Assembly (NCBI GenBank): GCA_937950065.1
Contig: CALFEN010000257.1
Span: 1-9,645 of the forward strand
Direction: 5' to 3'
Source: an uncultured bacterium
GTDB lineage: Bacteria; Patescibacteria; JAEDAM01; Absconditabacterales; Absconditicoccaceae
Length of the DNA: 9,645 bases
Position 1 is the first letter of the stretch. The number at the start of each line of letters is the position of its first letter. The notes beneath the pieces are model-generated. The model saw only the letters and a program-made list of their open reading frames with translations. It was not told where the DNA came from and searched no databases. This document shows, one piece after another, positions 1 to 9,645 of the stretch. Both the position numbers and the translations under genes were made by a program.

Positions 1-309
1 GCTAATGTTTCAGTGACTCAACAAATTTATAATGCCGTAGTCTTTCATCACGAGAGATTTAATTGACAAGGATATCCATCAAGACTAAATTGAGAAAATA
101 CTCCTCTTGTGATGTCTTGAGATAAAATTCCATTGGGAGTGAGGGTTATAACTATTGCTGATGTATTTGAAGCCCTTACTGCGGATAGACCATACCGTAA
201 ATGTATGGAGACAAATGAAGCATTGGAGACCATGGTTCATAAAATGGATGGTCATTTTGATAAGAATTTATTAAGGCTTTTTATAGAAAAAATAACAGGT
301 AGAAAATAG
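1..309 (+). CDS. HD-GYP domain protein, C-terminal part (5' end outside window)
   Basis: Open from base 1 to TAG at 307-309; the 102 visible residues are the C-terminal part of an HD-GYP domain. HD-GYP proteins are metal-dependent phosphodiesterases, usually of cyclic di-GMP. Seen here: HHERFNGQGYP at residues 16-26 (the HHE and GYP signature), then RVITIADVFEALTADRPYR at about 48-66, the usual end of the domain. The upstream HD residues and any sensor domain are missing. There are three in-frame UGA codons, at residues 22, 31 and 40; the first two fall on glycines conserved in the family (dGxGYP and the following loop glycine). The loop between GYP and the I-P-x-x-x-R segment looks about eight residues longer than usual. 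The gene is followed 24 bases later by the Nudix gene, probably co-transcribed. The domain call is firm; activity on c-di-GMP is inferred. Confidence 0.88.
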
Positions 310-333
310 ATTTTTAGAAATAACAATAAAAAT

Positions 334-762
334 ATGTCTACTTCACTGCCTATAGCAGTTCATATCCTATTGGTAGTTGGCGAACAGGTTTTGCTTTTAA
401 AAAGGAAATGAACTACTTTTTTTGATGGATTCCGGAGTCTGCCAGGGTGAAGGTTGGAGTTGGGAGAGACTATGACCGCCGGAGCTGTTAGAGAACTTAA
501 AGAAGAGGCTGGTATCTTGATTCAATCAACAGATATTGTAAAACATCTTATAATGCAACACAAAGATATAAGAGGACAGAGGGTATACTATTTTGGTTTG
601 ATTAATGATTATAAATGAAAGATTCAGAATATGGAGCCGGATAAGTGTGCTGATATTAAATTTTTTAATTTAAGTAATTTGCCGGATAAAATAATACCTC
701 ATATCAAAACTGCTATTCAATGCATCTCAAAAAATATATCTTATATAGAGTATTGATTTTAA
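334..762 (+). CDS. Nudix hydrolase
   Basis: 142 residues, ATG to TAA. Nudix enzymes hydrolyse nucleoside diphosphates linked to another moiety, such as oxidised or surplus nucleotides and sugar nucleotides. The full Nudix box (G-x5-E-x7-R-E-L-x-E-E-x-G-I) is at residues 39-61, with metal-binding glutamates E57 and E58 in RELKEEAGI. The N-terminal strand (IAVHILLVVGEQVLLLKR) and the LPGG turn fit a small MutT-type protein. Four UGA codons are in frame, at residues 26 and 39, about 97, and just before the last Phe. Residue 39 is the invariant first glycine of the Nudix box, strong evidence for UGA = Gly. There is no Shine-Dalgarno; the start is preceded by AACAATAAAAAT, shared with two other genes here. 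The exact substrate cannot be read from the sequence. Confidence 0.93.
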
Positions 763-850
763 GGAAATTATTATTTCAGTGATATCCTTGTTTAAAATCT
801 AGATAGTTCTAACTTTGTTTAAAATTTACTACATGAAACGAATAATTTTT
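763..850. other. Short intergenic stretch with an 11-bp direct repeat
   Basis: No gene. TTGTTTAAAAT occurs twice, at 788-798 and 815-825. A weak 5-bp hairpin at 764-777 lacks a T-run, so I see no good terminator for the Nudix gene. Confidence 0.4.
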
Positions 851-878
851 TTGACAATCTAAAAAATTTGATTATAAT
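851..878 (+). promoter_or_regulatory. Consensus sigma-70 type promoter for the cNMP-like gene
   Basis: TTGACA at 851-856 and TATAAT at 873-878, both perfect, with a 16-bp spacer. Transcription would begin near 885, giving a leader of about 32 bases before the ATG at 917. This is the strongest promoter match in the window. Confidence 0.8.
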
Positions 879-916
879 TTGTTAAGTACTAAATTTTATA
901 TTATAAAAAAAGGAAA

Positions 917-1489
917 ATGTTTGATAATTTAAAAAAGAACCTCGGTATGTATTCTCCTACAGAAAAAGCATTAATCTCAATGCTAAAAGATATTGAAATT
1001 TTTAAAGATTTTAATGAAAAACAGCTTTATGAATTATCCAAGAAATTTAAATTGGAAAAATATCTCAAAGACGTAAAAATTGTAAATGAATGAGAATTGT
1101 ATGGTAAAATTTGATTACTAGAGTCAGGAAATATAAAAGTTTTTAAAAAAATTACTTGAAATAATATACAACTTTGAGAGGTTATGAAATGAGAGATCTT
1201 TGGTGAAATGGCTTTTTTCACAAATAATTTACCAATGGCTACATTAATTTCCTATGAAAATTGTATTGTTTGGGAGATATGATATGAAGATTTTAAACAA
1301 ATTTTGGAGAAATATCCAGAGGTATATCAAAAGATAATAGAAACCATCAAAAAAAGACATTCTCAAAATGTAGAAATTTTGGAAGAAATAAAAAATAATC
1401 CTAATTTGTATAACAAACATTATCAGACGTGAACAACTGAAGAACAAGAAGAAATACAAACTATAAAAGTAAATATAAAAATATCATAA
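917..1489 (+). CDS. Cyclic-nucleotide-binding-like domain protein without HTH
   Basis: 190 residues, ATG to TAA. It resembles the CRP/FNR cyclic nucleotide-binding beta-roll: an N-terminal helix (about 16-45), strands around EGELYGKIGLLESGNIKVFKK (58-78), then KGEIFGEMAFF at 91-101, the phosphate-binding-cassette signature. The arginine that normally follows (R-x-A) and contacts the cyclic phosphate is absent (NNLPMATL), so a standard cAMP ligand is doubtful. The roughly 75 residues after the cassette form charged helix and tail with no recognisable helix-turn-helix, so it is not a typical transcription factor; it may sense something by protein contact. Seven UGA codons are in frame, and several fall on glycines expected in the fold. 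The start has AGGAAA just upstream, the only SD-like site at a start here. It has its own promoter and terminator, so it is monocistronic. Confidence 0.82.
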
Positions 1490-1523
1490 TATAATTTAAA
1501 ACAATTGGTATAAATTTAACATT

Positions 1524-1555
1524 AAAAATATGAAGAGAAGATCTTCATATTTTTT
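1524..1555 (+). terminator. Rho-independent terminator after the cNMP-like gene
   Basis: Hairpin with arms at 1524-1536 and 1542-1554 (core TATGAAGA / TCTTCATA), a 5-base loop and a T-run to 1555. It lies 35 bases after the stop codon. The stem is AT-rich, with A-tract pairing to T-tract. Confidence 0.75.
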
Positions 1556-1565
1556 GTAATTAATT

Positions 1566-1617
1566 TTTACAAAATCTTTACATGTTTTTTTTATAATTAG
1601 ATTACAAATTTTATAAT
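1566..1617 (+). promoter_or_regulatory. Possible promoter region with duplicated elements
   Basis: TTTACA occurs at 1566-1571 and 1577-1582, and TTATAATTA at 1591-1599 and 1611-1619. The best-spaced pair is TTTATA 1590-1595 with TATAAT 1612-1617 (16 bp), which would start RNA only a few bases before the ATG at 1631. The TATAAT at 1592-1597 has only a 20-bp-distant TTTACA. A promoter is expected here, since a terminator precedes it, but its exact position is uncertain. Confidence 0.4.
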
Positions 1618-1630
1618 TAAAACAATAAAA

Positions 1631-2467
1631 ATGGAAAAAAGAAAAATTATTTTATCTGTATTGACTTCTACTATGATAGTAGGAGGTATAATAACATTTG
1701 CCTCTGTTAGTTACGCAGACAGCATAGATACTACAACCGAAACAAATCAGCAGACCTCATGACACAACAAGTGAATGGGTATGTTTACTAAAGGTTTGGA
1801 AGAATATCTTGATGTAAACTCTCTTTCTTGAGATGACCTTACATTGTATCAAGAGGCTCTAACTACATTACAGGAAACCATGGAATCATCCAGAACATCT
1901 ACTTGAGATCAAACTGTTATGCAGGAGACAATGAGTTCTGCGTGGACAACTTTTATGGAAAGCATAAGAACTTTGGTTTCTGAAGAGAATTTGGACGCTT
2001 TTGATGAATTTGTATCTGCATGATTTCAAATGCCTACTCAAGGAGACGGGAATTTTGGTAGTGGGGATAGAGCTAATTTTGCTTCTTGAGACAAACCAGA
2101 TTTTGGTAGCGGAAATCATTCACAATTTGGCAGTGGCAAATGAATGAGTTTTTGATCATGAGATAAACCAAGTTTTGGTAGCGGGGAACGTTCAGAAATT
2201 GGTAGTTGAAATTGAGAAGGTCAGAATATGAAACCATCAAAAGGAAGCCATAATTTTACATATATAACTTGAGATACTTATACAGCTATCTCAACTAAAA
2301 TAGAAAAGATGTCTCAATCAAAATTGGACAAAATTTCTCAAAAAATAGATGCTGTTATAAATAGTTTGGATAGTTCAGATGCAAATTATGATATGAAACT
2401 TGAATTATTTACAGAGTTGAAAGAAATGATAGAATCATTAACATTAGATTCTACAACATCTTCTTAA
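1631..2467 (+). CDS. Secreted protein with Gly/Ser octapeptide repeats
   Basis: 278 residues, ATG to TAA; I recognise no named family. A signal peptide covers about residues 1-30 (KRK, a hydrophobic core, then SYA before DS as a likely signal peptidase I site). Residues 45-135 are predicted mostly helical and acidic. Residues 141-196 are seven consecutive octapeptides of pattern x-F-G-S-G-x-x-x with no length variation. The last 80 residues are again helical and charged (segments such as KIEKMSQSKLDKI). Twelve UGA codons are in frame. Within the repeat, UGA and GGN alternate at the same position, so the gene itself shows that UGA means Gly. The leader AAAACAATAAAA directly before the ATG matches the last gene of the window. 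A surface or extracellular structural role is a guess; the flexible Gly/Ser segment could act as a spacer between two helical domains. Confidence 0.85.
2051..2218 (+). repeat. Seven 24-bp in-frame coding repeats
   Basis: Seven units starting at 2051, 2075, 2099, 2123, 2147, 2171 and 2195, each eight codons, consensus [N/D/Q/S]-F-G-S-G-[D/N/K/E]-x-x; the last begins E-I. Unit 2 has Ala at position 3. Position-5 Gly is coded GGG, TGA, GGA, GGC, TGA, GGG and TGA in order; position 3 of unit 5 is also TGA. Units 2 and 5 both end in SGDKP. The DNA is more diverged than the protein, so selection keeps the peptide pattern. Confidence 0.9.
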
Positions 2468-2506
2468 GATATAAAAATTTGTATTGATATTTTAATTAAA
2501 AAAAAT

Positions 2507-2533
2507 TCACTACCTTCGGGGTAGTGATTTTTT
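2507..2533 (+). terminator. Rho-independent terminator after the repeat protein
   Basis: Stem TCACTACC (2507-2514) with GGTAGTGA (2520-2527), a loop containing TTCG, then six T's. It lies 39 bases after the stop. This is the most GC-rich and most convincing terminator in the window. Confidence 0.9.
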
Positions 2534-2640
2534 GTTATAAAATTTATGATAGGGACAACGATTTTTTAAAGATTTCCAAAAATAAATTTATGGTTAAAAT
2601 TTATAAAAAGTTTTGCTTTTCAATATCATATTTATTTAAT

Positions 2641-2800
2641 TATAATTAATGACCAACAATATATTTTAGAAAAATAAATATTAAAGCCATAGTAAAAAAA
2701 TCTCTTTTTATCTATAGTTTGCATAATTTCGTAGTTTTAGAGATCGTTTTTTGGGAGCTCTTTATTAAAAAAACTCCTATATAATTATAGGAGTTTTTGT
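2641..2800 (+). ncRNA. Candidate small RNA in the 390-bp gap (weak)
   Basis: The stretch 2468-2859 holds no gene I can support. Within it, TATAAT at 2641-2646 (poor -35) could start an RNA near 2653 that ends at the strong hairpin at 2771-2796. In between is a hairpin with arms 2689-2698 and 2705-2715 (ATAGTAAAAA / TTTTTATCTAT, one bulged base) and a weaker pairing of AGAG near 2740 with CTCT near 2760. A terminator with no + strand gene in front of it is the main reason to suspect an RNA, but that hairpin also serves the minus-strand gene. Confidence 0.25.
2771..2800. terminator. Bidirectional terminator
   Basis: Perfect 11-bp stem AAACTCCTATA (2771-2781) / TATAGGAGTTT (2786-2796) with loop TAAT. 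It has T's on the right (2794-2798) and seven A's on the left (2767-2773), so it can end transcripts in both directions. On the minus strand it lies about 65 bases beyond the cold-shock gene's stop. Confidence 0.8.
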
Positions 2801-2859
2801 TTAGACTTAATGATAAGATATAAAGTTTTTAAAATTATCTTTATATATTTTTGATCTCT

Positions 2860-3099
2860 TTAATCTTCAATGTTTTCACTTGATGCACTTCCGTTAAAAT
2901 TAACATTAACGGCTTTCTTTTGTCAATTTTTACCATCTACGATTTCAAATTCTACTTCCATTCATTCTTGTAATCATTTGAAAGAATCATAACCACCTTG
3001 CATTTCACTAGCGTGGAAAAAAATGTCTTTCCCAGAATCCAATGATATAAATCCATATCATTTTTCTTCAATAAGTCTTTTGATAATACCTTGTTGCAT
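2860..3099 (-). CDS. Cold-shock domain protein
   Basis: 79 residues on the minus strand, ATG at 3099-3097 to TAA at 2862-2860. Cold-shock domain proteins bind single-stranded RNA and DNA and melt mRNA structure. RNP1 is KGYGFI (residues 13-18) and RNP2 is DIFFHAS (about 25-31), followed by the usual EGMEVEFEIVDGKNGQKKAVNV. The length is slightly above the usual 65-70 because of an acidic, Ser-rich tail of about ten residues. Four UGA codons are in frame; the first is the RNP1 glycine. It is the only minus-strand gene, with its own promoter (3188-3215), a leader of about 80 bases and a terminator shared with the + strand. Long leaders are common in cold-shock genes and can carry temperature control; that is inferred here. 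A csp-type symbol would fit, but the paralogue cannot be named. Confidence 0.94.
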
Positions 3100-3159
3100 T
3101 TAATTATATAAAAAAATAAAATATTAAAATAAATATTCAAAATAAATAAAATTTTTTTC

Positions 3160-3205
3160 AAAACCTATTATACTAAAATATTTATTTATTATATAATAAG
3201 GTTTT
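3160..3205. repeat. Inverted repeat over the cold-shock promoter
   Basis: Arms AAAACCTATTATA (3160-3172) and TATAATAAGGTTTT (3192-3205), complementary but for one extra base, separated by 19 AT-only bases. The right arm overlaps the -10 box and spacer of the minus-strand promoter, and the left arm lies just inside the predicted transcript. It could be an operator or an RNA hairpin. Confidence 0.5.
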
Positions 3206-3215
3206 CTTTTGTAAA
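3188..3215 (-). promoter_or_regulatory. Promoter of the cold-shock gene
   Basis: Read on the minus strand: TTTACA (3215-3210), a 16-bp spacer, TATAAT (3193-3188). The start would be near 3181, with a leader of about 80 bases. Confidence 0.68.
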
Positions 3216-3242
3216 TTCAATAGAATATTATAAAAAAATTAT

Positions 3243-3270
3243 TTGATAATTTTGTTGACTTCATTATAAT
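3243..3270 (+). promoter_or_regulatory. Promoter of the Mur ligase operon
   Basis: TTGATA (3243-3248), a 16-bp spacer, TATAAT (3265-3270). The predicted start near 3277 gives a leader of about 26 bases. It is divergent from the cold-shock promoter, with about 30 bp between the two -35 boxes. Confidence 0.68.
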
Positions 3271-3302
3271 AAGTAAAATTTAAATAAAATTCAGATAAAC
3301 AG

Positions 3303-4577
3303 ATGAAAGATATATTGAGAAAAACTATTTTTTATAAACTATATAAAAAATCAAAAGCTGCTTTTGCAAATGCGATTTACGGTAGTCCCTCAAAAAATCT
3401 TTTTGTAGTATGAGTTACAGGAACTGATGGCAAAACTACAACAGTAAATCTAATTCATAAAGTTTTTAATGATAATTTTGGAAAGACTTGACTTGTAAGT
3501 ACTGTGAACATAAAAGCTTGAGAAGAAGAACTTTTTAATAAAACAAAAATGACGTCTTTGGATCCTCTAGCATTACAAAAAATATTGTTTGATCTAAAAG
3601 GGAAATGATGTAAAAGTTTAATTCTAGAGGTGAGTTCTCATGGGCTGGACCAACAAAGATTTTATGGTATAAACTTTGATATGTGAGTCTTGACAAATAT
3701 TACCAGAGAACATCTTGATTACCACAAAAACTTTGAGGACTATGCAAACACAAAAAAACAGCTTTTTAAATGAATTTCTATGAACAATAAACCTCAAAAA
3801 TATTGAGTATTCCCAAAAGATGATGCTTATGGCAGACAATGGTTGGATGAATTTGTATTAGATAAGGAAATGGATTTTGGTATAAATATATCCTCAAGTA
3901 TAAAAGCTGAAAATATAGTAGAGAGACCTGATGGACTTTCCTTTGATATAAAATTCCTTGGGAATCCTTATAAAGTAAATTCTCGTTTGATATGAAGATT
4001 TAATGTATATAATATATTGACAGCTATATCTGCTGGTGTGCTTGTTGGTATACCTATGAATAAAATAATTAAATCTATCGAAAAGTTCGAATGATTGTCT
4101 TGAAGAATGGAAAATGTATTTTTTAATTGAGTAAATTATTATATAGATTTTGCTCATACACCAAACGGGCTTGAGAGCGTATTAAAAGCTCTAAATGATA
4201 TTAAATGAAAAGGGAAGATAACTGTAGTATTTGGGGCTCCGGGGGAAAGAGATCCTTTCAAAAGACCTGTAATGGGTGAAATCGCTGATCATCTTGCTGA
4301 TACAGTGATAGTTACTGATGATGATCCTGCTGGAGAAAATAGGTATGATATTATCAAACAGATAGTAAAATGAGTTAAAAGACAGGAATGAGATAACTTT
4401 TTTGTCCTGCCGGAAAGAGAATTTGCTATTAGAATGGCTGTAAAGCTTTCTAAACCATGAGATATTGTCTTGCTGGCTGGTAAATGACATGAAAAAGTGC
4501 AATTAACAAATTTTGGGAAAAGACCTTGGAATGATAAGGATGTTTTATTATCAATACTTGAGGATCAAGATTTTTAA
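3303..4577 (+). CDS. MurE-like Mur ligase, lacking the N-terminal UDP-binding domain
   Basis: 424 residues, ATG to TAA. MurE adds the third amino acid to UDP-MurNAc-dipeptide in peptidoglycan synthesis, using ATP. P-loop GVTGTDGKTT is at 37-46, EVSSHGLDQQR at 109-119, TNITREHLDYH at 131-141, and K151 in the YANTKKQLF segment is the likely carbamylated lysine. GRFNVYN lies at 231-237, GRMENV at 267-272, DFAHTPNGL at 282-290, ERDPFKRPVMG at 315-325 and LLAGKGHE near 400. The amino-acid motif DNPR reads DDPA (340-343), unlike meso-DAP enzymes and closer to lysine-type ones. The P-loop begins at residue 37 against roughly 110 in typical MurE, and a stop codon 18 bases upstream rules out a longer start, so domain 1 is missing. 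Sixteen UGA codons are in frame, including the first P-loop glycine. It leads a unit with the next two genes. Another Mur-type ligase is possible. Confidence 0.87.
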
Positions 4578-4593
4578 AAAATTATAAAAGTAG

Positions 4594-5289
4594 ATGAATT
4601 TGTTGAAGGAAAAATTGAAAAGATTATTATTATGAAAATACTATTGAGAATTCAAGAATCTTTTTAAATGAACATGAATTGAAATACAAGACTTCAAACA
4701 ATATCAAATATGAGATGAGACAAGACATATCAACTGGAAAATCTCTTCTAAATATGATGAACTTTTTGTAAATGTTATCGGTCATCATAAAGATGCTACC
4801 ATAGATATTTTTTTTGATATTAATAAGAATTGGCTTTGATGAGAAAAAATTTTAAATAAAGATAAAGCTTTCGACCTTTTTTCCGATATATTTGTATATG
4901 CAAAAAAACATTGAGCAACTATAAATTCTTATTTTACTGAAGAGAGTAGGATAAGAATGCAAAGAATAAAAAACGAATCAGATATTTTTGTATTAGCTTC
5001 ATCAATAGAAAAACAGTTAAATAAGATGGGAAATAGATATATCTCAAATATAGAACATTTTTTACGTAATCAAAAATCTATCTCCAAAAGGCACGTGATT
5101 ATTATTTTTTCGGATTTTTTGAACTTGGATGATTACCAGATAAAGACTATTAAAGCATTAAACTTTAAAAATGAAATCTTATTGATAAAACTCAATATAA
5201 ACAAAGTGCAAGGTATCAATTATGATATCTTTGATATAAAAAAACAGATCCCTTATTATAATAAATTAAGGTATATAAATTTATCATAA
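4594..5289 (+). CDS. DUF58 family protein
   Basis: 231 residues, ATG to TAA. DUF58 proteins are often coded beside MoxR-type AAA ATPases and von Willebrand A proteins, with a suspected role in complex assembly or the envelope; no reaction is known. Seen: FKGTGIEIQDFKQYQIGDETRHINWK within residues 24-49, the diagnostic G-x-E...Y-x-x-G-D-x-x-R-x-I-x-W pattern, then KYDELFVNVI. The following strand DIFFDINKN would hold the vWA-like metal site (D-x-S-x-S), but its serines are replaced, so metal binding is doubtful. There is no membrane segment. Eight UGA codons lie in the first 120 residues, which hides the domain under the standard code; the conserved Gly at residue 40 is one of them. The start is the first ATG after an in-frame TAG, 16 bases after the Mur ligase. 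No MoxR gene is visible. Confidence 0.84.
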
Positions 5290-5301
5290 ATTTTTATTCA
5301 A

Positions 5302-5913
5302 ATGTTTTCAGAATTAGTTCTTAATGCAAAAAAATATATTCAAAACTTATTAGCCCCGCTTGAGGGACAGTGATTCTACTTCCATAATTTATGACATACT
5401 TTGGATGTGTTCCAGAGAGTAAATTATCTTATAAAAAAAGAAAATGTAAATGATGATTTGGGAGAATTATTACAGCTTGCAGCATTATTTCATGATAGTG
5501 GTTGTGTGGTGTCCTATATATGACATGAAAGATATAGTTTTGAGCAGTTAAAAAGTTTTTTAAAAACAGTAGATATTTATTATCCCGAAGATAGAATAGA
5601 TATTATTAGAAATATAATATATTGTACAGAGGTATGACAAGAGCCGACAAATATACTTGAAAAGATAATAAAAGATGCAGATCTTGACAATTTAGGGAGA
5701 GATGATTTTTTTGAAAAGACAGATAATCTTAAAAAAGAAACATATATTATCCAGTGAATAGATTATTCCTTGCTCCAATGGCACGAAAAGACCCTGAATT
5801 TATTGGAACACACTAAATATTATACCAAGACACAAATCTCTGAAAGGAGGGATAATCTTAAAAATAATATAATTTTATTAAAAAAAGAAATAAAAAAATT
5901 AAAAAACTTGTAA
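5302..5913 (+). CDS. HD-domain phosphohydrolase
   Basis: 203 residues, ATG to TAA, beginning 12 bases after the DUF58 gene. HD-domain proteins are metal-dependent hydrolases of nucleotides or phosphate esters. Expected ligands are present in order: H28 and H32 in YFHNLGHTLDV, the H64-D65 pair in ALFHDSG, H75 after YIG, and an aspartate in IIKDADLDNLG (125-131). The length and the spacing H...HD...H...D fit a small single-domain HD protein of the kind that acts on nucleotides. The C-terminal 40 residues are lysine-rich and probably helical. Five UGA codons are in frame; those at residues 31 and 74 each precede a ligand histidine. There is no Shine-Dalgarno. Its place behind the Mur ligase and DUF58 suggests co-transcription, not necessarily one pathway. 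The substrate is unknown. Confidence 0.84.
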
Positions 5914-5914
5914 C

Positions 5915-5943
5915 TTGTTTGTAAAAATTTCGTATTATATAGT
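5915..5943 (+). promoter_or_regulatory. Weak promoter candidate before the beta-propeller gene
   Basis: TTGTTT (5915-5920), a 17-bp spacer, TATAGT (5938-5943). No terminator separates this gene from the HD gene, so read-through from the Mur ligase unit is equally possible. Confidence 0.3.
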
Positions 5944-5974
5944 ATCAACAATTTTAAATCATAATAAAATAAAG

Positions 5975-8182
5975 ATGAAAAAACATTTATTATTAATTCC
6001 AGCAATTATGCTGACATGTTCTCTGGTGTTTGCTGCTTCAGAGGATACACAAATAGAAGACGCTATAAATCAACAAGATAGTGATCAGGTTATTGAAAAT
6101 ATAAAAGACCTGAATGAAAATTTTAAATTCCAGAAATTTAATACCTGCGGCGATATGGAGAAGACCGTAGAAGATTTTGTTAAGCTTTTTTCAAACAGAT
6201 GGTATCGTGGTGGTATGGAGTATTCTACTAATGAACTATGAAGTTTGGTTGACGGAGCAGCTAGTCCTACTCAAGCAGATGTTTCTATGTCAGCTGGAGA
6301 AAAAGTAAAATCATCTTCTACAGATTATTCTACAACAAATGTACAAGTACAATGAGTAGATGAGCCAGAGATATTAAAGACAGACGGTAAATACCTTTAT
6401 TATTACAATGATTCTAAAAAAAAGATTTATATTATAAATTCACCATTAGATACAAAGTTATCTGAAATAGATTTAAATAAAGCGGAGATACTAAAAACTA
6501 TAAAGATTCCGGAATGATTTTATGGAGTTCAATTGTTTCTATCCGGAAATAAATTAGCTATTATTTGAAGCAGATATGTTAATCTAAAAAATTATAATAC
6601 TATACTAGATAAGTCTACTAGAACAACTGTTATAATATATGATACTACAGATGTTAGCAAATTAGATTTATTAAAACTTTATGATATAAATTGAAATTAT
6701 TACGATGCTAGATTTACAAATAATGAATTGTATATAGTATCAAAGAGTTATTTAAATTTTTATTATGCATATCCTTTGTATAGATCAGATGTGAAGGCTC
6801 AAGATATGGAACCAGATTTTAGTGCTTCTGATTTATTGCCAAAACAAATTGAAGTAACAAAAAAATCAGATACTTGAAAAGTCAAAGATAGATTTAATAT
6901 AACTGCATCAAACGTAGATTGTAATGATATAATGTATCTCTTCCCAACAAAAGAAACAGTAGAAAAATATAATGTTTCACCCACATTGGCTATCGTTTCA
7001 AAAATAGATATGTCTGATCTTACAAAGAAACCTGCTACAAAAGTATTATTTGGAGATGTTTCTCAAATGTACATGTCCAATGATAATTTGTATTTGGTAA
7101 ACAATTTTTATATATGATATAACTTTAACTGTCCTGCCGGAGCTATGTGTATGATGCCAGCTTTTAGGTCTTGAGAAAATAGTTTGATACATAAGTTTAA
7201 TCTAAAACAAGATTTAACATATCAAAATAGTGCTATAATACCTTGATTGCCGTTGACTCAATATAGTATGGAAGAGGATTCTCAATGAAATTTCCAGATA
7301 TTAAGCAAAACATGGTGGACAAATTTAAATACACATCTTTTTATATTATCTCCTGATCTATCTTTAAAATGAAAATTGAATAATATAAAGGATAAGGAAG
7401 AATTTAAGGCCTCAAGATATATTTGAGACAAATTATACCTTGTTACATATCAATCAATAGATCCGTTGTTTGTGATAGATACTAGCGACAAATCAAATCC
7501 AAAAATATTATGAGAACTTGAGATACCTTGATATAGTAAATATTTACATCCTTATGCAGATGAGGAAAATTGAGTACAATACCTTATCTGACTTTGATAC
7601 GACACAAAGACAAATCAATGGGGATGAACTCAGAATGCATGATTAAAAATAGATTTATACAAAATAGATTATAATAAAACAACTTCTACTGAAACTTGAA
7701 ATAATATTTCTATAGAACAAAAATTTAGTACTGTCCTTGGAACAGGTGGAAGTTGGTCTGAAGCATTGGAAAATCCTAGAATGTTTGTCTGGGACAAAAA
7801 AAATAAATTGTTATTGATGCCTATGATATTACAAAAAATAGCACAAGAGAAGAGTTGCTACACAGATTATTTAGGAAAAACTACTTGTAATGATATAGAT
7901 AGAAGCGTTCCTACATTTGCATGAATAAAATGATTTACTATTGATGTTGATAGTGGTATCAAAGAAGTGCTTTCAAAAGATTACCTTGATATCTTGAAAT
8001 CTAATGATTCAAGTAATCCTTATCAATATTTCTCTGAACGGGAATTTAGGAATATGAATTTTAGAGTTGGATATTTGTGAGATGCTATATATTCTTTAAA
8101 TAATCTTATTTGAGATTTCTTCCTAAAGGATAATACATCAAAATCCAATATTATATATTTCGATTCAGATATAGAAAAATAA
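5975..8182 (+). CDS. Secreted beta-propeller protein (Beta_propel / COG4880 type)
   Basis: 735 residues, ATG to TAA, with a second stop (TAG) directly after. The signal peptide is residues 1-20 (MKKH, hydrophobic core, VFA before AS). An upstream in-frame ATG at 5915 would put 20 residues before it, so the ATG at 5975 is preferred. Residues 122-140, TNVQVQGVDEPEILKTDGK, match the entry motif of the Beta_propel family, whose members are secreted proteins distantly related to WD40; their function is unknown. After it come repeated strand-turn blades of the LYYYND, LAIIGSR, LYIVSKS, LYLVNNF, LYLVTYQ type, typical of a propeller. Cys pairs near 400-410 and 645-655 may form disulfides. About 24 UGA codons are in frame, the first at residue 89. 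There are no transmembrane anchors beyond the signal. It could bind proteins or glycans outside the cell; that is inference. A clear terminator follows. Confidence 0.88.
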
Positions 8183-8202
8183 TAGATGCCAGTAAAGAGA
8201 TC

Positions 8203-8228
8203 AAGACTAATTATCTTGGTCTTTTTTT
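8203..8228 (+). terminator. Rho-independent terminator after the beta-propeller gene
   Basis: Stem AAGACTAA (8203-8210) with TTGGTCTT (8216-8223), one T-G wobble, a 5-base loop, then T's to 8228. It begins 20 bases after the stop codon. Confidence 0.75.
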
Positions 8229-8514
8229 ATATGAAATTATAAGGGGAAAAGATTTGCTTACAATTTGGAATTCCATTGAGATATCCATGATATTGTGGAA
8301 TGGTTTGTGTTTTTTATAAATTTAATATAGTCTGTAAATTAGTGTCTCTTTTGAACTTGGTGGAATGATAAATTTGCTCTCAATTCATAAAATACGATAT
8401 TTAGATAATTTGAAATATATTTTATATGATTTATAATTATTTTAGATAATCATAGATAATCTCTGTGGAGGATTAATAGGAATTATTAAAAAATAAAAAA
8501 TTATATATTTTTTG
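8229..8514. other. Non-coding stretch with hairpins
   Basis: No gene seen on either strand in either code. It holds a bipartite hairpin at 8271-8300 (outer arms TTCCA / TGGAA, inner ATATC / GATAT) followed by a T-rich tail, and a second hairpin at 8457-8475 (TAATCTC / GAGGATTA, one bulge). AGATAAT recurs three times between 8400 and 8460. It may be leader or regulatory DNA for secE-nusG or a small RNA; I cannot name it. Confidence 0.4.
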
Positions 8515-8542
8515 TTGCAATTTTGGAATAAATAAGTATAAA
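8515..8542 (+). promoter_or_regulatory. Promoter of secE-nusG
   Basis: TTGCAA (8515-8520), a 16-bp spacer, TATAAA (8537-8542). The start would be near 8549, with a leader of about 34 bases. A second TATAAT at 8553-8558 lacks a good -35. Confidence 0.55.
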
Positions 8543-8582
8543 GGAAAACGCGTATAATTTTTTAATTAATAAAAATAATATA

Positions 8583-8768
8583 ATGTTTAACTTTTTTTAT
8601 GATAGTTTGGATACTTTGAAGCAAGTAAAAAAACCTACTAAAAAAGAAATAATCGAAATGACTTTGCAAATATTTCTTGTAGTAATATTGGCTACAGTTT
8701 TTTTTGCTATAACTGATTCGGTATTCGTTTCTATATTCAAGCAAGTTACATGAATATTTGTAAAATAG
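8583..8768 (+). CDS. secE: Preprotein translocase subunit SecE
   Basis: 61 residues, ATG to TAG. SecE is the small essential subunit that clamps SecY in the inner-membrane Sec translocon. The protein has the single-TM form: an amphipathic helix ending in LKQVKKPTKKEI (the conserved V-x-x-P-[ST]-[KR]-x-E pattern, with Trp replaced by Lys) and one membrane segment at about residues 29-55, with an Asp at the usual place. The length is typical of short bacterial SecE. One UGA codon lies near the C-terminus (VTGIFVK). Identification is supported by nusG starting 21 bases downstream, the standard order. There is no Shine-Dalgarno; the leader is AATAAAAATAATATA. Confidence 0.93.
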
Positions 8769-8789
8769 TTTTATAATATATAAAAAAGT

Positions 8790-9362
8790 ATGGATTCTAC
8801 AGTAGATATAAAAAAACAAATAGAAGATAACGATTATAAGCGGTATACTTTAAGTGTTGTTTCTGGTCAAGAAAGGCTTGTGGTCGAAAATCTTATAGAA
8901 AGAGTTAAAAAACAATCTCTACAAGAAGATATTGTAGATTACTTGGTTCCTATTGTTCCTGAAGTTCATTATAGGAAAGGGAAAAAATATGTTAAAGAAA
9001 GAAAACTTTATCCTTGATATGTTTTTGTAAAATCCAAAATGAATGAAAAAATTTGGTATATTATAAGAAATACTCCAGGTGTTAGACTTATAGTATGAGC
9101 TGAAGTTCATCCTATACCTTTGACAGAAAAAGAATATCAGGATATAATAGCTCAAATCAAAGAAAAAACAGATAGATTAGAACACGCTGTTCCTTTTAGA
9201 GAAGGAGATATTGTTCTTATCAAAGATGGTCAGTTTAAGTGAACACAATGAGTGATTACTGAAATAGATGGAAATAAATGATTTTTGTGTATAAATATAG
9301 AAATACTTGGTAGACCAACATCAGTAATGGTGCCTTTTGAAAAGGTAGAAAATGTAAATTAA
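8790..9362 (+). CDS. nusG: Transcription termination/antitermination factor NusG
   Basis: 190 residues, ATG to TAA. NusG binds the RNA polymerase clamp, suppresses pausing and links transcription to ribosomes or Rho. The NGN domain runs from about residue 16: YTLSVVSGQERLVVENL, then the VPEVHYRKGKKYVKERKLYPGYVFVK stretch with the hallmark PGYV, then RNTPGVRLIVG. The KOW domain is at about 135-188: FREGDIVLIKDGQFKGTQGVI with the G-x-F-x-G-x-x-G pattern, ending RPTSVMVPFEKVE. Five UGA codons are in frame; they code the PGYV glycine and two KOW glycines, which are nearly invariant, so they are among the clearest proofs of UGA = Gly here. The N-terminus is about 15 residues longer than the core. 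The usual rplK-rplA pair does not follow directly. Confidence 0.97.
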
Positions 9363-9380
9363 AAGCAATTAAATTTGTAA

Positions 9381-9390
9381 AACAATAAAA
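9381..9390 (+). promoter_or_regulatory. Shared A-rich start-site leader
   Basis: AACAATAAAA directly before the ATG. The same ten bases precede the starts at 334 (322-331) and 1631 (1621-1630). It replaces a Shine-Dalgarno and supports these starts. Confidence 0.55.
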
Positions 9391-9615
9391 ATGTATCAAG
9401 AAAAAAAAGTTGTTATAATCTCTGTTATTGTTTTGTTAGTTGCTTTGGGTTTAGTCTACGCATTATTCTTTGGTTTGGAATGAGATAATCTTTTTGATAA
9501 TACTTCCCCAAAAATCGCCCAAGTAGAACAGTCTACTTGAGTACAACAAAAAGACTTGGAGAATGATAAAATTTTATCACAAACTGGGGTTTGACTTGTT
9601 GATGATATTTTGGAG
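9391..9615 (+). CDS. Membrane-anchored protein, N-terminal fragment
   Basis: 75 genuine residues from ATG 9391 to the last genomic base at 9615. A short charged N-terminus (MYQEKK) is followed by one hydrophobic helix at about residues 7-28 (VVIISVIVLLVALGLVYALFF), then a polar stretch rich in Asn, Asp, Gln and Ser, as in a single-pass protein with an external or periplasmic domain. Three UGA codons are in frame. The reading frame stays open to 9645, but the last ten codons (RSEERRVGKE) come from sequencing adapter and are not part of the protein. It begins 28 bases after nusG with no terminator between, so it is probably in the secE-nusG transcript. Too little is present to assign a family. 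Confidence 0.75.
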
Positions 9616-9645
9616 AGATCGGAAGAGCGTCGTGTAGGGAAAGAG
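9616..9645. other. Illumina adapter contamination
   Basis: All 30 terminal bases match the well-known Illumina TruSeq universal adapter (reverse complement), beginning AGATCGGAAGAGC. The GC content and CGT arginine codons are unlike the neighbouring DNA. It is an assembly artefact at a contig end. Confidence 0.97.

Follow-up and report, generated by a model that had tools for sequence, protein, structure and literature searches.

UGA is read as glycine, and CGG probably as tryptophan, in twelve genes of an Absconditabacteria-like contig

The genetic code of a contig from an uncultured bacterium (CALFEN010000257.1, assembly GCA_937950065.1) was analysed with respect to the meaning of its UGA and CGG codons. 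The window, by which we mean the whole stretch of 9,645 nucleotides, holds twelve genes when it is read under NCBI translation table 25, in which UGA encodes glycine; eleven lie on the plus strand and one on the minus strand. The plus strand opens with the 3′ part of a gene for an HD-GYP domain protein (1..309; PF13487; three UGA; ending in UAG). It is followed by genes for a Nudix hydrolase (334..762; PF00293; four UGA and one CGG), a cyclic-nucleotide-binding domain protein (917..1489; PF00027; seven UGA) and a 278-residue protein with Gly-Ser repeats (1631..2467; without a Pfam match; 12 UGA), all three ending in UAA. The last of these products looks secreted, and its Gly-Ser-rich repeats are FGSGDKP-like, with glycines encoded by a mix of GGN and UGA. 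The single minus-strand gene (2860..3099; PF00313; four UGA; ending in UAA) codes for a cold-shock domain protein. Further genes on the plus strand, each ending in UAA, encode a Mur ligase of the MurE type (3303..4577; over the cut-off of TIGR01085; 16 UGA), a DUF58 protein (4594..5289; PF01882; eight UGA), an HD domain protein (5302..5913; PF01966; five UGA) and a beta-propeller protein (5975..8182; PF09826; 24 UGA and one CGG). Downstream are secE (8583..8768; over the cut-off of TIGR00964; one UGA; ending in UAG), nusG (8790..9362; five UGA and one CGG; ending in UAA) and the start of a gene for a membrane-anchored-looking protein (9391..9615; without a significant Pfam match; three UGA), which runs off the natural sequence. 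The last 30 bases (9616..9645) match what we take to be the Illumina TruSeq adapter, so that the natural contig sequence presumably ends near position 9615. At the end of the protein of a close relative (P0123) stands DRKSVV, the peptide that the same adapter would give in another frame. Scans of the window for RNA families and tRNAs found none.

The twelve genes comprise 2710 sense codons. The in-frame UGA codons, put at about 92 in an initial annotation of this DNA, number exactly 92 and occur in every gene; with 95 GGN codons beside them, about half of all glycines would be encoded by UGA. The claimed shares of UGA among the glycines of NusG (5 of 12) and of the Mur ligase (16 of 37) were likewise reproduced. 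Not one in-frame UAA or UAG was found among the 2710 codons. Since each of the six whole-window frames holds 132 to 187 TAA and TAG triplets, such open frames are not due to chance. Eleven gene ends are visible, with nine UAA, two UAG and no UGA. The initial annotation gave these figures correctly and attributed them to eleven complete genes; ten genes have both ends in the window, and the gene at 1..309, truncated at its 5′ end, adds one 3′ end. Its warning that a standard-code annotation would be wrong also holds, as table 11 breaks each of the twelve genes. The G+C content is low (27%), and CGN codons are rare: arginine-box usage is AGA 52, AGG 15, CGT 5, CGG 3, CGA 0 and CGC 0.

To assign a residue to UGA, the columns at which the Mur ligase and NusG carry this codon were tallied against standard-code homologues (27 loci for the Mur family, 43 for NusG); UGA was masked as X before alignment so that no residue was favoured. 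Over the 21 scorable UGA columns the log10 likelihood was +14.4 for glycine and −7.3 for alanine, the next residue. Tryptophan and cysteine, named in the initial annotation among the residues that would speak against glycine, scored −15.5 and −14.4. As a reference, the GGN codons of the same two proteins reached +19.9 for glycine over 28 columns. Glycine was the most common residue at 15 of the 21 UGA columns versus 16 of 520 columns at other non-GGN codons (Fisher p 2e-16). When the scoring was extended to all codons on the Mur and NusG columns, 54 sense codons could be scored, and 14 of these preferred a residue other than that of table 11. Thirteen of the 14 were rejected as reassignments, their columns being few or variable and their margins not exceeding about 1.3 log10; the exception is CGG, with one column and 2.6 log10.

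The individual motifs agree with this result. UGA on the glycines of the Nudix box, of the cold-shock RNP1 motif and of HD-GYP, as proposed initially, was borne out by comparison with standard-code proteins, and in NusG both the PGYV and the KOW column hold glycine in 43 of 43 standard-code homologues. The UGA placed in the P-loop of the Mur ligase is indeed on a conserved glycine column (17 G, 5 A and 1 C in standard-code homologues), but this codon, number 37, sits just before the P-loop, whose own glycines are encoded by GGA and GGC. For DUF58, in which we take Y-x-x-G-D to be the motif, the test was by Pfam score alone, with 33.1 bits when UGA is glycine against 24.7 when it is tryptophan. 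UGA and GGN also interchange among relatives: at the PGYV glycine of NusG, 37 clade genomes have GGN in 28 cases and UGA in nine.

The Mycoplasma code (table 4) likewise treats UGA as a sense codon, with tryptophan as the residue, and it is the reading used by the protein collection for this contig: the collection's copies of the window's NusG (P0003) and Nudix hydrolase (P0244) are table 4 translations, with W at five of five and four of four UGA positions. Apart from that usage, the reading conflicts with the column likelihoods given above and with the domain scores. Glycine outscored tryptophan in all nine Pfam domains compared (eight proteins), and a tenth domain, KOW, was lost with tryptophan because it failed the E-value limit of 0.001; the comparison left out the HD protein, SecE and the two proteins without a family match. 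With the tRNA evidence described below, UGA as tryptophan is vanishingly improbable, and that residue is wrong here.

The three CGG codons were examined one by one. In NusG (codon 18; 8841..8843, plus strand) all 24 standard-code homologues that cover the site have W in the column, which in the 37 clade genomes holds TGG 22 times, CGA 13 times and CGG twice. In the Nudix hydrolase (codon 34; 433..435, plus strand) the column has W in three, Y in nine, F in two and R in none of 14 other homologues; taken alone, it suggests an aromatic residue only. In the beta-propeller protein (codon 689; 8039..8041, plus strand), 22 clade loci show CGA 4, TAT 3, GCT 2, TGG 1, GCA 1, GGA 1, a gap in ten and no arginine codon. 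Two further proteins (P0124 and P0125) have W at this column and were not counted; this W is ambiguous because the two proteins also show W in place of glycine at UGA columns. Reading CGG as tryptophan instead of arginine raised the Pfam score of NusG from 68.5 to 75.8 bits and that of NUDIX from 60.6 to 65.9. The NCBIfam score of NusG rose from 134.5 to 140.1 bits and thereby crossed the cut-off of 135.7; under table 4 it was 121.1 bits. Judged from these alignments and scores, the evidence favours tryptophan for CGG, strongly in NusG, as an aromatic residue in the Nudix hydrolase and weakly in the beta-propeller protein. Thus, in the window itself, UGA lies on glycine columns, and CGG lies on a tryptophan column of NusG and an aromatic column of the Nudix hydrolase.

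Exchange of codons among relatives points in the same direction. All 20 CGA or CGG codons in 37 clade nusG genes fall on two tryptophan columns, and these columns otherwise hold 54 TGG and no arginine codons. Where the window has TGG in NusG, SecE and the beta-propeller protein, the clade codons are 66 TGG, 26 CGA or CGG and no arginine codons; at the window's arginine columns they are 326 arginine codons, four CGA or CGG and two TGG. It is clear that CGA and CGG replace UGG, not arginine codons, in the relatives. None of the window's 2710 codons is CGA, so the meaning of this codon in the window's organism rests on kinship.

By sequence comparison, the nearest relatives of the window appear to be Absconditabacteria. 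Ca. Absconditicoccus praedator (59%) and Ca. Vampirococcus lugosii (58%) are among the named organisms in the 120 of 308 NusG matches that were listed, and Absconditabacterales or SR1 appears in the titles of several of the closest genome contigs. Genome-level tests covered 37 related genomes (those behind loci L001 to L037, some titled Gracilibacteria). Searches with short anticodon-arm patterns were discarded, as the tRNA matches were mostly due to chance and a reversed-pattern control gave equally many; whole tRNA genes were used as queries instead. A match to tRNA-Gly(UCA) of at least 54 nucleotides was present in 32 of the 37 genomes. ARAGORN found the anticodon UCA in all 30 fetched loci and labelled them 'SeC'. 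The relatives' tRNA(UCA) is a 74-nucleotide tRNA with glycine identity elements: the distinct genes have G1:C72, C2:G71 and U73 in 16 of 16 cases and G3:C70 in 15 of 16, which matches the rule for glycine in the excerpted text of PMC8629427. Position 37 is G in 16 of 16 distinct tRNA-Gly(UCA) genes (L152-L181, L081, L083) versus A in seven of seven distinct tRNA-Gly(UCC) genes. A G at this position is unusual in a tRNA that reads a codon starting with U, and no publication on position 37 of tRNA-Gly(UCA) turned up in a limited, title-level literature search. The distinct tRNA(UCG) genes have A1:U72 and G73 and lack A20 in eight of eight cases, while A20 is present in 19 of 19 tRNA-Arg(UCU) genes; this is the Trp-type identity set after PMC8629427.

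Release factor 2 (RF2; TIGR00020) exceeded its cut-off in none of the 37 relatives; applied to 14 control genomes, the same search gave RF2 over the cut-off in 10. Release factor 1 (RF1; TIGR00019) was matched once in 34 of 37 genomes, at the same places as weaker matches of the RF2 model and with higher scores. The evidence on the tRNAs, on a single RF1 and on the lack of RF2 comes from the relatives only. Among them is the genome with the best genome-contig match to NusG (G001, locus L001), which has a tRNA-Gly(UCA) (L166), one RF1 match and a tRNA(UCG) (L184) at a contig edge that is readable by eye to G73.

These findings also bear on the idea that UGA is a stop codon here, with decayed genes or with readthrough, or that it encodes selenocysteine or cysteine. 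No evidence for any of these readings was found. They conflict with the spread of UGA across all twelve genes that are free of in-frame UAA and UAG, with the column likelihood of cysteine, with the glycine identity elements on the relatives' tRNA(UCA) of 74 nucleotides and with the lack of an RF2 over cut-off in the 37 relatives, and we regard their probability as negligible. Column likelihoods, domain scores and the tRNA of the relatives together rule out UGA as tryptophan, cysteine, selenocysteine or stop. UGA as glycine is strongly supported by the conserved columns, by the exchange of UGA and GGN, and by tRNA-Gly(UCA) together with RF1 but no RF2 in the relatives.

We favour the explanation that the window comes from the chromosome of a bacterium of the Absconditabacteria (candidate division SR1), whose code would be table 25 plus CGA and CGG as tryptophan. 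UGA would be a glycine codon decoded by a tRNA-Gly with anticodon UCA, RF2 would have been lost, and RF1 would terminate genes at UAA and UAG. A tRNA bearing the anticodon UCG and identity elements of the Trp type would insert tryptophan at CGG and, by kinship, at CGA, a codon that these genes lack. The window's own genome probably has the same tRNAs and release factor set, the tRNAs being charged as their identity elements indicate. We assign the explanation as a whole a probability of roughly 93%.

Several observations weigh against it. Six of the 21 scorable UGA columns have a most common residue other than glycine. A tRNA(UCA) match was absent from three of the 37 genomes and short only in two, and tRNA(UCG) was found in just ten with a DNA query. 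The sole tRNA(CCG) seen (L258, genome G028) was trimmed automatically to C1:G72 and A73, which is not Trp-type; with a shift of one base, it would have A1:U72 and G73. A second, short and weak match of the RF2 model occurs in eight of the 37 genomes (G018, G019, G022, G023, G025, G026, G032 and G035); lying beside the RF1 gene, it might be a related GGQ-domain protein. RF1 exceeded its own cut-off in just 14 of the 37, which may be due to a search that did not translate UGA as glycine. In the beta-propeller protein, seven of 32 CGA or CGG columns hold an arginine codon in some relative, and the column of the window's own CGG is ambiguous. The Nudix column is mostly tyrosine (9 of 14), and CGG occurs just three times in the window's genes.

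The small number of CGG codons would also suit plain table 25, in which UGA as glycine is the only change and the three CGG are ordinary arginine codons. Table 25 is the registered NCBI code for SR1 and Gracilibacteria, and according to the excerpted text of PMC8629427 CGG is read as arginine in some Gracilibacteria. On the other side stand the tryptophan column of NusG and the Nudix column without arginine, the NCBIfam score of NusG that passes the cut-off with tryptophan only, the replacement of TGG rather than of arginine codons in relatives, and the Trp-type tRNA(UCG), that of the nearest genome included. We therefore consider plain table 25 very unlikely. The initial annotation's choice of this table stands for UGA and is incomplete for the three CGG, which it would read as arginine where the evidence favours tryptophan.

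Both reassignments are already known for the group. In the excerpted text, Shulgina and Eddy 2021 (PMC8629427) describe Absconditabacteria with UGA as glycine and CGA and CGG as tryptophan, and the same combination is stated for Absconditabacterales in PMC13092985 (2026). The window shares with the code of PMC8629427 the position of UGA on glycine columns and of CGG on a tryptophan column, the low G+C content and the rarity of CGN, and its relatives have tRNA-Gly(UCA) and the Trp-type tRNA(UCG); it differs in that its genes lack CGA and that the tRNAs are known from relatives. Table 25 resembles the window's code in UGA as glycine and in UAA and UAG as stops, and differs from it in keeping CGA and CGG as arginine. 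The same UGA reassignment occurs in a sister group of different lineage, BD1-5 or Gracilibacteria, for which Hanke et al. 2014 (PMC4032931) report mass spectrometry peptides that fit glycine only in 97 cases, tryptophan only in three and stop only in none; the excerpted text of that paper is silent on CGG. Campbell et al. 2013 and Rinke et al. 2013 are among the references of these publications. The statement in the initial annotation that the glycine reassignment is known and the code not new is confirmed by PMC8629427 and PMC4032931; the change of CGG had been missed.

We also considered whether the two reassignments are linked. Wobble at U34 would let tRNA-Gly(UCA) read UGG as well, so that tryptophan would have moved to CGA and CGG, and G37 would have been gained to separate UGA from UGG. 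CGA and CGG make up 34 of 124 tryptophan codons at five strongly conserved tryptophan columns versus 74 of 164 at 59 weaker columns. Because the conserved columns do not prefer CGA or CGG, we rate the link as very unlikely. The same counts give no support to the proposal that CGA and CGG spare critical tryptophan sites from UGG ambiguity, as critical sites do not avoid UGG.

The consequences for annotation reach beyond this contig. Tryptophan at an invariant glycine column is a mark of translation with UGA as tryptophan, and it is present at one of two such columns in 60 of the 120 NusG relatives listed from 308 matches (P0003-P0122). Arginine stands at the first tryptophan column in 31 and at the second in 23 of the same 120. 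Clade proteins in public collections are therefore often wrong at glycine, at tryptophan or at both. The window is a clean further example of the known double reassignment, and its practical weight is that of an annotation warning: table 4 would place tryptophan at 92 glycine codons, and table 25 still gets CGG wrong and keeps the score of NusG slightly below the NCBIfam cut-off.

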